Below, in pieces: positions 5,165 through 23,193 of a stretch of 32,425 nt of DNA. Under the pieces are notes generated by a model, which was not told the DNA's origin, did not search any database, and was given only the letters and a program-made list of their open reading frames with translations. Where the stretch lies: NCBI GenBank assembly GCA_018822805.1, contig JAHJJU010000081.1:1-32425 (forward strand), in the 5' to 3' direction. Source of the DNA: a bacterium (lineage in GTDB: Bacteria > Campylobacterota > Campylobacteria > Campylobacterales > Sulfurovaceae). Positions within the stretch are counted from its first letter, which is position 1; the number at the start of each line of letters is the position of its first letter. Both the position numbers and the translations under genes were made by a program.

Positions 5165-6475
5165 TCATTTAATAACCTCTCCATTGTTCACGGTATAGGA
5201 GTCAGACATATTGACACTGTGGTAGATGGTTGTTCCATATTTTTTATTGTAGTATTGTAAAAGTATTTTTTGTTGGGTAGATTCAATGGAAGGGGTGAAC
5301 CAGCCATTGTTACTTAACACAATCATATTTTTCGGTTTGCCTTCATAAAGTTTTTCCGAAGTGGCCTCAAAACAGATGGCATTTCTATAGTGTACTCCGT
5401 CAATTGTATAGTCTGTAAAGTCGGCTGAAGCAACATAATCCGGTGCTCCATCAAAAAAGATTTTATTAACCCAACTGCCCATCCATGAGGGTAGAGGGTT
5501 CTTTTCACCAAATGGAACCAGTTTTACCTTGTTGGCTATTTGATGGCTTCCCTCTTTAAAAATATAGGTAGAGTTACGAGGAATGGTGTTATCCCAGTAG
5601 AGACCTCCTACAACAATGATGATTTTATTGGAGTAATGTTGAAGATCTTCCATGATTTGGGGTTGCATGTTAACAAAAAAGGCAAAGATAGATTCTGGAA
5701 AGACAATCACTGTTTGCTCTTTATCAATGGCTTCTCTAATGGCTACAAACACTTCATCCACATGTTTGGATATTAACTTTTCGTTCCATTTATCTTGTAC
5801 GGTTGTATGGGTGTTGTAGAGGGTGATTTTAGGATTGATGTCTTTTTTTTCTTCAAAATGAGCAGTAAAAGGGTGAGCCAGTAGAATTAAAAGAAGGTAG
5901 AAGAGTTGCTTTTTATAAAGTGAAAGTATCAGTGCCAACAGTACCAATCCAAATTGCCATTTTTCTATGCCTAAATAGCTGTTGGTAAACATCAGTTCAG
6001 GTTTAAACCAATCAAACCCAAAAGGATGAATGTATGAAAGTAATAATAAAATCACAGCTTTAGCAAGCATATCAAACCCCGTAGGGGCAGAGCCATGTCT
6101 CTGCCCTTGCTTCATAGGTAAAAAACGCCCAAAAAACTCAACCAAAGACAAAGTACCCCAAAAGATACTCATATAAATAAACCCCAGACCTAAAATAGGA
6201 AGGGGAATTGCCCATGCCATGTCATAGTTTTTGAAGCTGATACCGATCCACCAAAACCACAAAATACCAATCCAAAAACCGGTCCATACCCATCTCTTTT
6301 TGTTACCAGTCAATAAGAAATATAGAGCAGAAATGCCTAAAATGGTATTGATAAAATAGTTAATGAAACCAAGCCAATCTAGGTACATGGCTCCAGCACT
6401 TAAAAAGGCAATGAAAAAGCCTGCTGTTATATTCTTAATGGTAAAATATTTGCTTATTTTTACATATAAACTCAA
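5165..6475 (-). CDS. lnt: Apolipoprotein N-acyltransferase
   Basis: A 436-residue inner-membrane enzyme that N-acylates the N-terminal cysteine of lipoproteins. The N-terminal half has several membrane segments (about 15-55, 62-80, 88-118, 136-156, 173-200). The C-terminal half is a nitrilase-type domain with the triad E261 (F-P-E-S), K318 (K-V-K-L-V-P-F-G-E) and C368 (A-I-C-F-E). The start is a TTG with AGGGGA just upstream, only 11 nt from the divergent yajC start; no ATG occurs before residue 30. Residues about 123-132, in the loop between the third and fourth hydrophobic stretches, are encoded by a REP-like palindrome found again at 9801-9828. At 436 residues it is shorter than E. coli Lnt (about 510). 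Confidence 0.92.
   Translation of the reverse strand: MSLYVKISKYFTIKNITAGFFIAFLSAGAMYLDWLGFINYFINTILGISALYFLLTGNKKRWVWTGFWIGILWFWWIGISFKNYDMAWAIPLPILGLGFIYMSIFWGTLSLVEFFGRFLPMKQGQRHGSAPTGFDMLAKAVILLLLSYIHPFGFDWFKPELMFTNSYLGIEKWQFGLVLLALILSLYKKQLFYLLLILLAHPFTAHFEEKKDINPKITLYNTHTTVQDKWNEKLISKHVDEVFVAIREAIDKEQTVIVFPESIFAFFVNMQPQIMEDLQHYSNKIIIVVGGLYWDNTIPRNSTYIFKEGSHQIANKVKLVPFGEKNPLPSWMGSWVNKIFFDGAPDYVASADFTDYTIDGVHYRNAICFEATSEKLYEGKPKNMIVLSNNGWFTPSIESTQQKILLQYYNKKYGTTIYHSVNMSDSYTVNNGEVIK
6081..6108 (+). repeat. REP-like palindrome inside the lnt reading frame
   Basis: A 5' GTAG followed by GGGCAGAG, the loop CCATGT and CTCTGCCC. The stem is 8 bp and perfect. The reverse complement matches 9801-9828 in 27 of 28 bases. 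GTAG before a hairpin is the mark of REP sequences mobilised by Y1-type (RAYT) transposases. It reads through in frame in lnt and encodes residues about 123-132 in a loop between membrane segments. Confidence 0.75.
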
Positions 6476-9777: not shown

Positions 9778-9800
9778 GCATATAGAATTATTAATGAACA

Positions 9801-9828
9801 AAGGGCAGAGACTTGGCTCTGCCCCTAC
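9801..9828 (-). repeat. REP-like palindrome between convergent genes
   Basis: The minus strand reads GTAG, then GGGCAGAG-(loop)-CTCTGCCC. It is the second copy of the element inside lnt at 6081-6108, with one mismatch in 28. It lies between two convergent genes and ends 1 nt before the stop codon of the mltB-like gene, so it may act as a two-way terminator. Confidence 0.75.
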
Positions 9829-18869: not shown

Positions 18870-21863
18870 ATGACACAATCTGATGTTTATGAGTATCTTC
18901 TCTTAGAGGATACTCAGTTTAATGATAAGCTTCTTTTTGTCTGTAAAAATGACAAAGAGTCCCTAAAAACTGCTGACACGGCGACCCTTCTCAAGTATAA
19001 ACCCTTTATCCTTCCCGATTTAAGACTCTCACATGGTGATGATTTACGCTCTTTTCAAGTGGAGATTTATGAGCTTATCGAGGCATTGCATGGGTACTTT
19101 AATAGCAAAGAAAAAAAACTTTTAATCGCCCCACTACGTACCCTACTTATGCCTCTACCAAAAGAGGAGTTTTTCCCAACTTTAGAACTTGAGTTTGCCT
19201 CTACGGTTAATTTAACCGTATTAAAAGATAAACTCTACTATTGGGGTTATACTTTTGTCGATATTGTTACCCAAAAAGGTGAAGTCTCTTTTCGTGGGGA
19301 TATTATCGATATCTATCCCTTGGGCAATAATGTAGCCTACCGTATTTCACTTTTTGATGAAGATGTAGAGAGCATAAGAATATTCTCGGTAGACACTCAA
19401 AAAAGTTCTAAAGAGGATATTGAATTTATACAGATTATTCCTGCCGGATTGGGACTGAATGCTGAACAGTATAAAGCATGGAAAGAACGTGTTGAACAAA
19501 GTTCACTTGACAGTTTTGTAAAAGATATTGATAGTTTAGGTTTTTGGTATCTGAATGAACTGGGGGAAAACTATGTTCAATCTTTTACTGCTCTGTTTCT
19601 TTCTGCTATGCATGAAGAGTTGGAAGAGATATACTCCTTAGATAAGCCATTAATCTATCAAGAAGATTTCAACTTACCTCTTATTCCTAAAGCTAAAAAT
19701 TTCAGAGAGCTAGAGGTCATTAACCCTAACGCCATTATGAAATCAAATGCTCATAAAAAGATAACACTTATTGCTAAAAATGAGTCGATTATCCGTAGCT
19801 CCCAACTGCACTCTTTTGAAAATGTAGCGTTTGTTTATGAAGATATTATTGTTAATCTTATCTCGGATGAACAGGTGTTCATATCGTTAAATAAACCGAT
19901 TAAACGCAAAAAAGTCAAAAAAGCTTCCATTATTTTAGATGAGTTAAAACTGGGTGACCATGTCGTTCATGAAAATCATGGTGTAGGGCTGTTTAAAGGG
20001 GTAGAAAAACGGGTTGTTTTAGGAGCAACGCGTGAGTTTGTTTTGCTAATGTATCAAAATGAAGATTTGCTTCTGATTCCTGTAGAAAACCTCAATGTTA
20101 TTGACCGTTATGTGGCTGATTCGGGTGGATTGCCTATTTTAGACAAGATGGGCAAAGCGAGTTTCAAAAAGCTCAAAGGTAAAGTTAAAGAGAAACTTTT
20201 TGCCATTGCTTCTGAAATTATTAATTTATCAGCCCAGCGACACCTAAAAAAAGGAATTATGCTTAAACGTGATTTGGTAGAGCATCAAATCTTTATGAGT
20301 GAAGCAGGGTTTGTTCATACCGAAGACCAAGAAGAAGCGATTAACGGTATGTTAGAAGATATGGCAAGTGGTCGTATGATGGACAGATTACTAAGTGCTG
20401 ATGTTGGATTTGGTAAAACAGAAGTGGCAATGAATGGGATGTTTATCGCATGGAAAAACGGTTACCAATCGATGATGGTCGCTCCGACTACTTTGCTAAG
20501 TTCTCAACACTTCAAAAGCATGAAAGAGCGTTTTGGAAAGTACGATATTAAGTTAGGAAAACTTGACAGATTTACCACTGGAAAAGAGAAAACAGCTTTG
20601 CTTAAAGGGTTAAAAGAGGGTACGGTAGATATGGTGGTAGGAACCCATGCACTGCTAAAAGCCGAGTTTAAAAATTTAGCCTTTATTATTATCGATGAAG
20701 AGCATAAGTTTGGGGTAAAACAGAAAGAGGCTCTTAAAGAGATAGCCATTAATGTACATCTGCTTTCTATGTCGGCTACCCCAATTCCACGAAGTTTAAA
20801 CATGGCTCTTTCACAAGTCAAGACCTTTTCGGAAATCTTAACCCCACCCGTAGAACGTCAAGGGGTACGAACCTTTGTGAAGTCTTATGACGAAAAAATC
20901 ATCAAAGAGGCAATTACCCGTGAAATGCGACGAGGGGGGCAGATATTTTATGTTTTTAACTCCATTGCCCAGATAGAAGAGAAGAAGAGAATACTCTTGG
21001 AGTTGATGCCAAAACTACGCATTGCTGTGCTTCACTCTAAAATATCAGCTGCTCAAACCGAAAAAGATATGGAATTGTTTGAAGCTGGTGAGTATGATGT
21101 AATGTTGTCGACCTCTATTGTCGAATCGGGAATTCACATGCCACACGCCAACACCATGATTGTCGATGGAGCCGACAACTTTGGTATTGCCGACCTGCAC
21201 CAATTGCGTGGTCGTGTAGGACGTGGTGGAACAGAGGGTTACTGCTACTTTATGGTTGAAGATAAAGAGCGACTTACCGACAATGCCAAACGACGACTCT
21301 TAGCCTTGGAATCGCATTCCGATTTGGGTTCAGGAGCCGTTCTGGCCTTCCACGACTTAGAGATACGAGGTGGAGGAAACATCATCGGTGAAGCCCAGTC
21401 GGGACACATCAAACAAATAGGATACTCTCTCTACCTACGTATGTTAGAAGATGCCATCAAAGAGCTCAGTGGACAAGCCAAAGAGGAAGAGGAGGAGATA
21501 CAAGTTGATATTAAACTCACCATTAATGCCTACCTCAATGAAGAACTTATAGAAGAGGACAGACTCAGACTTGAACTCTACCGACGACTCTCTCAATGTG
21601 AAACCACGGGTGAAGTCTACGAAATAGAGACTGAAATAGCCGATAGATTTGGTAAACTTGATACCATTTCACGCCAATTCATCGATGTGATGGTGATGAA
21701 AGTCTTAGCCAAAGAGCAGAAAATTACCAAAGTAGCCAATGCCGGTGAAAAGGTTTTTATAGAGTTTGCCGATGGACATGATAGGGTGATGTTGAAGGCG
21801 TATAGCAAAGATGATGATGATTTGATTGCGACGGCTATGGGGTATTTGAAGGGGAAGTATTAA
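18870..21863 (+). CDS. mfd: Transcription-repair coupling factor
   Basis: A 997-residue DNA translocase that removes stalled RNA polymerase and recruits UvrA. The N-terminal third is the UvrB-like region. The RNA-polymerase-interacting (CarD-like) domain starts near 356 with L-G-D-H-V-V-H-E-N-H-G-V-G. The RecG-like motor has Walker A A-D-V-G-F-G-K-T-E near 510-518, the D-E-E-H box at about 609-612, S-A-T-P-I-P-R-S-L, and R-G-R-V-G-R-G. The C-terminal D7 domain follows. Length fits Campylobacterota Mfd and is shorter than E. coli (1148). The ribosome site is weak (AGGA about 15 nt upstream). Its TAA stop lies in the 56-nt palindrome at 21860-21915. Confidence 0.97.
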   Translation: MTQSDVYEYLLLEDTQFNDKLLFVCKNDKESLKTADTATLLKYKPFILPDLRLSHGDDLRSFQVEIYELIEALHGYFNSKEKKLLIAPLRTLLMPLPKEEFFPTLELEFASTVNLTVLKDKLYYWGYTFVDIVTQKGEVSFRGDIIDIYPLGNNVAYRISLFDEDVESIRIFSVDTQKSSKEDIEFIQIIPAGLGLNAEQYKAWKERVEQSSLDSFVKDIDSLGFWYLNELGENYVQSFTALFLSAMHEELEEIYSLDKPLIYQEDFNLPLIPKAKNFRELEVINPNAIMKSNAHKKITLIAKNESIIRSSQLHSFENVAFVYEDIIVNLISDEQVFISLNKPIKRKKVKKASIILDELKLGDHVVHENHGVGLFKGVEKRVVLGATREFVLLMYQNEDLLLIPVENLNVIDRYVADSGGLPILDKMGKASFKKLKGKVKEKLFAIASEIINLSAQRHLKKGIMLKRDLVEHQIFMSEAGFVHTEDQEEAINGMLEDMASGRMMDRLLSADVGFGKTEVAMNGMFIAWKNGYQSMMVAPTTLLSSQHFKSMKERFGKYDIKLGKLDRFTTGKEKTALLKGLKEGTVDMVVGTHALLKAEFKNLAFIIIDEEHKFGVKQKEALKEIAINVHLLSMSATPIPRSLNMALSQVKTFSEILTPPVERQGVRTFVKSYDEKIIKEAITREMRRGGQIFYVFNSIAQIEEKKRILLELMPKLRIAVLHSKISAAQTEKDMELFEAGEYDVMLSTSIVESGIHMPHANTMIVDGADNFGIADLHQLRGRVGRGGTEGYCYFMVEDKERLTDNAKRRLLALESHSDLGSGAVLAFHDLEIRGGGNIIGEAQSGHIKQIGYSLYLRMLEDAIKELSGQAKEEEEEIQVDIKLTINAYLNEELIEEDRLRLELYRRLSQCETTGEVYEIETEIADRFGKLDTISRQFIDVMVMKVLAKEQKITKVANAGEKVFIEFADGHDRVMLKAYSKDDDDLIATAMGYLKGKY

Positions 21864-21915
21864 CCTGAGTTCGACGGAATACCATAGCTATGGTATTCCG
21901 TCGAACTCAGGTTAA
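21860..21915. repeat. Perfect 56-nt palindrome with no loop
   Basis: Two arms of 28 nt are exact reverse complements, centred between 21887 and 21888 (centre TAGCTA). The ends read TTAACCTGAG and CTCAGGTTAA. The mfd stop codon, TAA at 21861-21863, is in the left arm. It could form a cruciform or a very stable RNA hairpin that ends mfd transcription. It is richer in GC than its surroundings, which suggests an inserted element. Confidence 0.95.
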
Positions 21916-22000
21916 CAAGTTTCTCTCGTACCCAAACTATTTCCAATTATCATTTTAAGATTACTCACTTTACCTACTATTTATTTAGAAGTTTTGACAC

Positions 22001-22052
22001 GATTAAACCCCATAATCAAATCAAAATATGATATGATTAGACCATATAATCA
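22001..22052 (+). promoter_or_regulatory. Twin operator-like inverted repeats in the fic promoter
   Basis: Two copies of an 18-nt sequence, at 22001-22018 and 22035-22052, agree in 15 of 18 bases. Each is an inverted repeat, GATTA-N8-TAATC (first copy 5-bp arms, N7-8 spacing; second copy TGATTA-N7-TAATCA). A consensus TATAAT (22045-22050) is inside the second copy. The AAAAGG ribosome site (22057-22062) and ATG (22069) follow. A repressor bound here would block the promoter; the wHTH tail of the Fic protein is the obvious candidate. Confidence 0.6.
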
Positions 22053-22068
22053 CCTCAAAAGGTAAACT

Positions 22069-23193
22069 ATGTCGTTAGAAAAAAAGTGGATATGGGAACA
22101 TGAAGGCTATCCAAATTTTAGATACAACCAAGATACTTTAATAGTATTGCTCCAAGAGATTAAATACCATCAAGGTTTACTCGATGGTATCTATAGTTCC
22201 ATAAATGATGAAGATTTAGGAAAAGCACAGATAGAAGTTTTTACGCAAGAGGCGATGGATACTTCAGAGATAGAGGGAGAGATACTCAATCGTGACTCCG
22301 TGCGTTCATCGCTCTCTAATAAGTTTCGCATTGATATAGGTGTTAAAGATAGTTCCAATAGAGTCACTGATGGATTGGTAGAGGTACTTATAGATGCTGT
22401 CTCTAATTTAGAGAAGCCTTTGGATGAAAATAGGCTGTTTTCTTGGCACAGGCTACTGTTTCCTCAAAATGAAAACCGTTTAATAGATATTCATATAGGG
22501 GCGTATCGTACAGAGGAGATGGAGATAGTGTCAGGGGCGATGACAAGAGAAAAAGTTCACTATGTTGCACCTCCTCCAGATACTTTAAAAAAAGATATGG
22601 GTTCTTTTTTGACTTGGTTAAATCAAGATGATGCGACGATTGTAAAAGCTGCTATTGCTCATTTGTGGTTTGTGATTATCCACCCAATGGATGATGGAAA
22701 TGGTCGAATAGCACGAGCCATTTCAGATTGGGTTTTAGCCAAAGAGGTCAACAAACGACAAAAACTCTACTCTCTCTCATCAGCCATTAAAAATGAACGA
22801 AAAGCCTATTATGAAATTTTGGAAAAAACAACAAAAGGTGACCCGGAGATAACGGCTTGGATAGCGTGGTTTTTAGAGACATTTTTACAAGCATTAAAAG
22901 ATGCTAGAGAGAGCATCAAATTTATTGTAGCGAAAACAGCATTTTGGGATAGACATAGAGGTACCGTTTTAAACGAGCGACAGATAAAAATACTCAATCG
23001 TCTACTTGATGTAGGTTATGGCAATTTTGAAGGGGGAATAAATACCAGAAAATATGCCTCACTGGCTAAAGTGAGTAAACCGACTGCTTCAAGAGAGTTA
23101 AAAGACTTGGTTGAAAAAGGGTGTTTAGTCCAAAAAGAGGGAACTTCCGGACGGAGTATTGCTTATGAGGTTAAGTATTACTCTGAAAATTAG
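22069..23193 (+). CDS. Fic family protein with DUF4172-like N-terminus and C-terminal wHTH
   Basis: A 374-residue Fic protein; the fold usually transfers AMP from ATP to a target hydroxyl. Residues 1-85 resemble the DUF4172 N-terminal region (W-I-W-E-H-E-G-Y-P-N-F). The autoinhibitory motif [S/T]xxxE[G/N] is T65-S-E-I-E-G70, making it a class II (N-terminal inhibitory helix) Fic. The active motif is H205-P-M-D-D-G-N-G-R213. Residues about 300-370 are a winged helix with a D-N-A-reading helix S-K-P-T-A-S-R-E-L. It is monocistronic, with no antitoxin gene beside it. The operator-like repeats upstream suggest autoregulation. The target is unknown. Confidence 0.9.
   Translation: MSLEKKWIWEHEGYPNFRYNQDTLIVLLQEIKYHQGLLDGIYSSINDEDLGKAQIEVFTQEAMDTSEIEGEILNRDSVRSSLSNKFRIDIGVKDSSNRVTDGLVEVLIDAVSNLEKPLDENRLFSWHRLLFPQNENRLIDIHIGAYRTEEMEIVSGAMTREKVHYVAPPPDTLKKDMGSFLTWLNQDDATIVKAAIAHLWFVIIHPMDDGNGRIARAISDWVLAKEVNKRQKLYSLSSAIKNERKAYYEILEKTTKGDPEITAWIAWFLETFLQALKDARESIKFIVAKTAFWDRHRGTVLNERQIKILNRLLDVGYGNFEGGINTRKYASLAKVSKPTASRELKDLVEKGCLVQKEGTSGRSIAYEVKYYSEN

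Follow-up and report, generated by a model that had tools for sequence, protein, structure and literature searches.

A perfect, loopless palindrome at the 3′ end of mfd in a Sulfurovaceae draft genome is very probably a MITE copy reduced to its two IS982-type ends

The window analyzed here, a 32,425-nt stretch of Sulfurovaceae DNA (contig JAHJJU010000081.1, assembly GCA_018822805.1), contains a palindrome that is very probably a miniature inverted-repeat transposable element (MITE) of the kind mobilized by IS982, which came to lie over the stop codon of mfd and was then stripped of its interior. Each of the two arms (21860-21887 and 21888-21915) measures 28 nt; they are 100% complementary and 0 nt apart, just as an initial annotation of this DNA had described them. 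This is the only loopless perfect palindrome in the window with arms of at least 8 nt, the chance expectation for such palindromes being ~3e-12 given the size and composition of the window, and its GC content (42.9% versus 36.8% for the window) agrees with the enrichment remarked upon earlier. Upstream lies the mfd ORF (18870-21863, + strand), which encodes a 997-aa transcription-repair coupling factor (TIGR00580 mfd, 1019 bits). Since the ORF ends at 21863, its TAA stop codon (21861-21863) falls inside the palindrome, as had also been noted. The element proper, whose boundaries were defined by the points at which the 5-bp duplications of other copies start, spans 50 bp (21863-21912; ACC...GGT) and consists of two 25-nt terminal inverted repeats placed back to back, ACCTGAGTTCGACGGAATACCATAG / CTATGGTATTCCGTCGAACTCAGGT; its first base is the final A of the mfd stop codon. 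The left repeat (21863-21887, + strand) has as its outer 13 nt the tip of IS982-family elements of relatives, and the right repeat (21888-21912, - strand) was delimited from the palindrome arms and by comparison with the family. The outermost 3 nt of each palindrome arm are flanking DNA that pairs by coincidence. The next gene downstream (22069-23193, + strand) encodes a 374-aa Fic/DOC-domain protein with DUF4172. The 50-bp element holds no gene, and therefore no DDE transposase, so that it is not a member of the IS982 family proper.

The genome-wide search that the initial annotation had called for showed that the palindrome belongs to a repeat family. In the 2.79-Mb draft of the same genome (G000), a 14-nt core, CCTGAGTTCGACGG, has 28 exact copies and eight more that differ at one position, and a reversed-core control gave 0 matches. 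The core was found in 16 of the 120 genomes searched, G000 included, and in two of the 44 genera, with the highest count (162 exact tips) in genome G024. An 18-nt pattern scan of a named genome collection, for which ~7 chance matches were estimated, returned 79 stretches, 76 of them titled Campylobacterota (Campylobacteraceae, Campylobacterales, Nitratifractor); the other three were single tips in Pseudomonas and Desmonostoc and a contig labelled Patescibacteria (L110, JAHJJO010000148.1). The DNA flanking the L110 insertion is, to its left and to its right, 70-77% identical to that of G012 and G021, and this synteny with the Campylobacterota genus of the window means that the contig is probably misbinned. 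The full MITE had no match in a plasmid collection, queries with the 31-nt ends matched plasmid and phage collections only weakly and at chance level, and a scan of viral contigs returned 33 stretches with a single tip each, approximately the chance level estimated for a 15-mer.

Copies in this family begin and end with ACCTGAGTTCGACGG...CCGTCGAACTCAGGT and are mostly 265 bp long. Paired copies were collected as inward-facing tips with up to 3 mismatches, no more than 450 bp apart and with both flanks present (the window and loci L009-L184), and merging of duplicate elements left 57 distinct copies; unpaired tips, which numbered 49 in the first collection and include 16 of the 28 exact tips of G000, were excluded. 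The 57 copies span 36-340 bp, the commonest lengths being 265 bp (n = 23) and 291 bp (n = 8). An exact 5-bp target duplication flanks 41 of them, whereas re-pairing the flanks in 1000 shuffles gave 4.2 on average and never more than 11. Every one of the 41 has T as its first base and A as its last. With the ACC...GGT boundaries, no duplication of 3, 4 or 6-9 bp was found at any of the 57 copies. Duplications of this fixed length and T...A form are the hallmark of transposase-mediated insertion. Short, repeated and non-coding, with matching terminal inverted repeats and a target duplication of fixed length, these elements are MITEs. Folded as a single strand, the 265-bp parent form is predicted to have two inner hairpins enclosed by a long stem of its terminal repeats (z = -16.7).

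Eleven of the 28 exact tips in G000 are solitary and lie away from contig ends (L009, L011, L018, L019, L022-L027, L029). Behind them the sequence diverges after 14 to ~80 nt; the outer flank, in most cases, still resembles a T...A target. These tips are one-ended remnants. In G024, a 1.7-Mb draft, many contigs end within a MITE (L036-L045, L296, L297, L299), and tandem tips occur ~30-40 nt apart (positions 40/70 of L037 and 4962/5001 of L039).

The ends of the MITE point to the IS982 family as their source. A profile search for the IS982 transposase (NF033520) matched 26 of 120 genomes, nine of them over the cut-off; G000 and G024 gave 0 matches, although a draft assembly can miss such a gene. 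Among 30 IS982-type loci examined, seven distinct ones (L262, L268, L269, L271, L273, L284 and L290; L289 coincides with L269) carry the tip ACCT(G/A)AGTTCG(A/T)(C/T)AA. This group, of the ACCTGAGTTCGAC type, matches the MITE ends, and the tip common to the MITEs and the IS982-family elements of relatives is 13 nt long. The element at L269 is 1036 bp long, is flanked by the duplication TTTTA, which has the T...A form seen at the MITEs, and encodes a transposase that scores 166.7 bits against NF033520 (cut-off 130); the gene lies in two open pieces (166.7 and 52.7 bits), of which the larger has PF13612. No target duplication was found at L262, a locus with the right tip from a different family within the order. 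Among IS982 elements of the genus, those that score better mostly carry a different tip, of the ACCCAAACTGCTAGTT type, and seven well-scoring loci (L263-L267, L287, L288) have the type ACC(C/A)AAA(C/T)TGCTAGTT. A disrupted insertion sequence in genome G022 (L051, 2669-3491), with tips ACCTAAGTTCGACAA and ACCTGAGTTCGACAA, is of IS982 type, has the tip found in the MITEs and carries a MITE copy inserted inside its transposase gene; its flanks, TATAAA on the left and TATAA on the right, are near-identical without an exact 5-bp duplication. Beyond the tip, 12 nt are common to the G024 form of the MITE and two of the four IS ends compared, and the longest runs shared by the G000 form (5-9 nt) are not telling. 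Derivation from such an insertion sequence is therefore likely for the ends of the MITE and less sure for its interior.

Two other sources of the ends were considered and set aside. An IS1380 parent was suggested by the ends and the 5-bp duplications, but no locus examined had the tip on both sides of an IS1380-type gene. The IS1380 profile (NF033539) matched 20 of 150 genomes of the bacterial family, six over the cut-off, with no match in G000, and one IS1380-type locus (L221) has a single tip-like stretch with 3 mismatches that lies away from the gene. Two long tip pairs, L117 (1380 bp) and L128 (2194 bp), were tried as autonomous forms and enclose only ordinary genes. Clustering of ORFs across the copy-bearing loci examined revealed no recurring transposase.

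Compared with a full-length copy in its own genome (L028, 3045-3309), the element in the window has kept 25 nt of each end and lost the rest. It is one of nine distinct shortened copies (36-77 bp), six of which, the window copy not among them, retain an exact duplication; it is the only perfect palindrome of the nine. A search of 175 genomes of the bacterial family for exact tips no more than 30 nt apart yielded the window copy, a 53-bp form on contig C66 and a 36-bp form in G024, and the same three elements were obtained when the search was restricted to 16 genomes. In the reading that we favor, a MITE with IS982-type ends entered the 3′ end of mfd at a five-base T...A target, presumably moved in trans by an IS982-type transposase. 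The interior (~215 bp in the 265-bp form) would then have been lost, leaving the inverted ends joined without a spacer. Slippage or hairpin bypass may account for this loss, because the parent strand folds into a terminal stem and the junction in the window can be read as two ends that overlap on the 2-nt sequence GC.

A rather unlikely alternative, yet the strongest of those considered, is that the 50-bp form was not made in place, and that short, near-loopless copies transpose as units, one of which landed at mfd. Two species each have the 53-bp form, at loci unrelated to one another; the copies agree at 52 of 53 bases, and each is flanked by its own exact duplication (TTAAA at L021; TATTA at L110, the contig syntenic with the genus of the window). 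These two sites are the best hint that short forms may move. However, a deletion after insertion would also preserve the duplication, an identical junction could arise recurrently, the 50-bp form was found nowhere else in the exact-tip search of 175 genomes, and the duplication of the window copy is broken. We raise only tentatively the idea of an interior-free transposon, in which IS982 ends placed back to back (36-55 bp, with no loop or one of a few nt) would be mobilized in trans by an IS982-type transposase. If this were true, the genome would contain palindromes, perfect or nearly so, that are mobile although no larger than the usual minimum for bacterial MITEs, the mfd copy among them, and independent movement of 50-bp forms would show how close together two transposon ends can lie.

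Among the points against the favored reading are the flanks at mfd. The left target-duplication slot (TATTA, 21858-21862) differs from the right slot (TAACA, 21913-21917) at two of five positions, and we infer that the duplication of this copy was lost or altered after insertion. An intact duplication of odd length would forbid a 3-nt extension of the palindrome; thus, either a flank has changed or the two ends derive from different copies. The initial annotation had invoked active repair of the arms. Correction of one flank by template switching, as in quasi-palindromes, is possible; by converting TAACA to TATTA it would neatly account for the difference between the slots and would agree with the mfd ends of relatives, but the family-wide test was not significant: arms extend by at least 3 nt in 5 of 16 copies without an exact duplication, versus 16.4% for random pairing (p = 0.11), and by at least 5 nt in two of the 16 (p = 0.30). 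Repair of the arms is thus conceivable for the outer 3 nt and finds no significant support across the family.

The suggestion that the palindrome is an insertion was correct, in that it is a copy of a dispersed transposable element. The tip was present at the mfd end in none of 26 mfd-homologous loci of relatives, one of which (L095) has a single tip ~1.4 kb from the mfd end. An exact empty site was not found among these loci, because the DNA downstream of mfd is not conserved. At 13 of the 26 loci a Lys codon of mfd is followed directly by TAA or TAG, whereas the window reads AAG TAT TAA. The direct effect of the element is that it supplies the final base of the stop codon of mfd; relative to those 13 loci, it is accompanied by one extra tyrosine codon. 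Stop codons are completed by the first A of the tip at mfd and at two other tips of G000 (3 of 36 tips), and two further tips in that genome contain the stop codon TGA.

The initial annotation had raised the instability of long spacerless palindromes in the presence of SbcCD. This concern was fair, in that the genome itself encodes SbcD (221 bits, cut-off 77.65; contig C48) and the palindrome persists nevertheless. Directly downstream of SbcD is a long open frame that looks SbcC-like by eye. Within the genus SbcD is patchy, with 7 of 34 genomes over the cut-off and any match at all in 3 of the 13 best-quality genomes. The palindromes known to be strongly counter-selected are those well over 100 bp, and at 56 bp the present one is shorter than those known to be inviable in E. 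coli. Copies of this family are natural sites for testing the persistence of loopless palindromes with or without SbcCD.

MITEs derived from IS982 are already known. MITECca01 of Cardinium is one such element, and the accessible portions of its description (PMC9769881) show that it resembles the present family in being ~240 bp long, transposase-free and present in high copy number with IS982-like ends. It differs in its host phylum, in its ends and in having its parental IS in its own genome, whereas none was found in G000, and copies reduced to the two ends, like that in the window, are not reported in those portions. In the account of the IS982 family (PMC7335449, as excerpted), ends start with AC and carry a T at position 9, and the target repeats measure 2-10 bp. 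The tips described here fit the AC start and the T at position 9, the 5-bp duplications fall within that range, and L269 has the NF033520 transposase; positions 15-16 are AA in the tip-sharing IS and GA in most MITE copies, as opposed to TT in the IS982 consensus, and the MITE copies, unlike IS982, are gene-less. MITEAba12 and other bacterial MITEs, according to the part of PMC6382973 available to us, are likewise non-coding and thought to be mobile in trans, and they can come to lie at a gene's 3′ end and provide its stop codon; bacterial MITEs measure ~50-600 bp, and the smallest MITEAba12 is 111 bp long, whereas the 36-55-bp copies found here are little but ends. The partially accessible literature on MITEs in Sulfurovum or Campylobacterota and on IS982 in Campylobacter contained no description of this family. 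What is new is the family itself, in Campylobacterota drafts near Nitratifractor, and the unusually reduced copy. A striking palindrome is thereby explained without new machinery, as an extreme but explicable case of a known kind of element.

The palindrome is probably without cellular function, and it is very unlikely that it is a selected cis element at the mfd end, be it a terminator, an mRNA-stabilizing hairpin or a dimeric protein site. RNA of either strand would fold back on itself into one long hairpin without mismatches (-59.5 kcal/mol; z = -13.2 for the + strand), which could affect the mfd transcript. Against such a role, the tip is absent from the mfd ends of relatives and copies of the family adjoin many different genes. 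The strong terminator proposed earlier is unsupported: no T run follows the stem, and a terminator scan of 21600-22200 returned 0 sites, although that scan counts no more than 20 stem pairs and the stem here is longer. A dimeric binding site, which had also been proposed, holds insofar as the arms are transposon ends and not otherwise. Rfam gave no match in the window.

We consider it equally improbable that the palindrome is a fold-back assembly artefact or a collapsed longer MITE. MITE copies do break this assembly, where 5 of the 16 exact tips without a partner are found no farther than ~210 nt from the end of a contig, but the flanks of the window copy are different, unique sequences that mirror one another for only 3 nt beyond the element, and shortened copies are present in several independent assemblies.

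Least credible of all is that a RAYT/Y1 transposase moved the palindrome as a REP of the GTAG or CGTC class, as the present family is mostly 265 bp long with ends of ~30 nt and makes 5-bp target duplications, which REPs are not known to do. Both REP classes are reported in Sulfurovum, and G000 has seven Y1_Tnp matches, but REPs are 20-40 bp long, their stems measure 5-13 bp and their GTAG or CGTC tags are unpaired (PMC3733652, as excerpted). Moreover, no tip-like sequence was found near Y1 genes at five of six loci examined, and the sixth (L303) has, ~1.4 kb away, a tip with 1 mismatch that is a known copy of contig C64. GTAGGGG was near the Y1_Tnp genes at 0 of the six loci. The initial annotation was right that the palindrome is unlike the GTAG-type repeats of the window, where a 35-nt REP-like stem-loop of that type (GTAGGGGCAGAGCC...) occurs as an inverted pair at 6081-6115 and 9794-9828.
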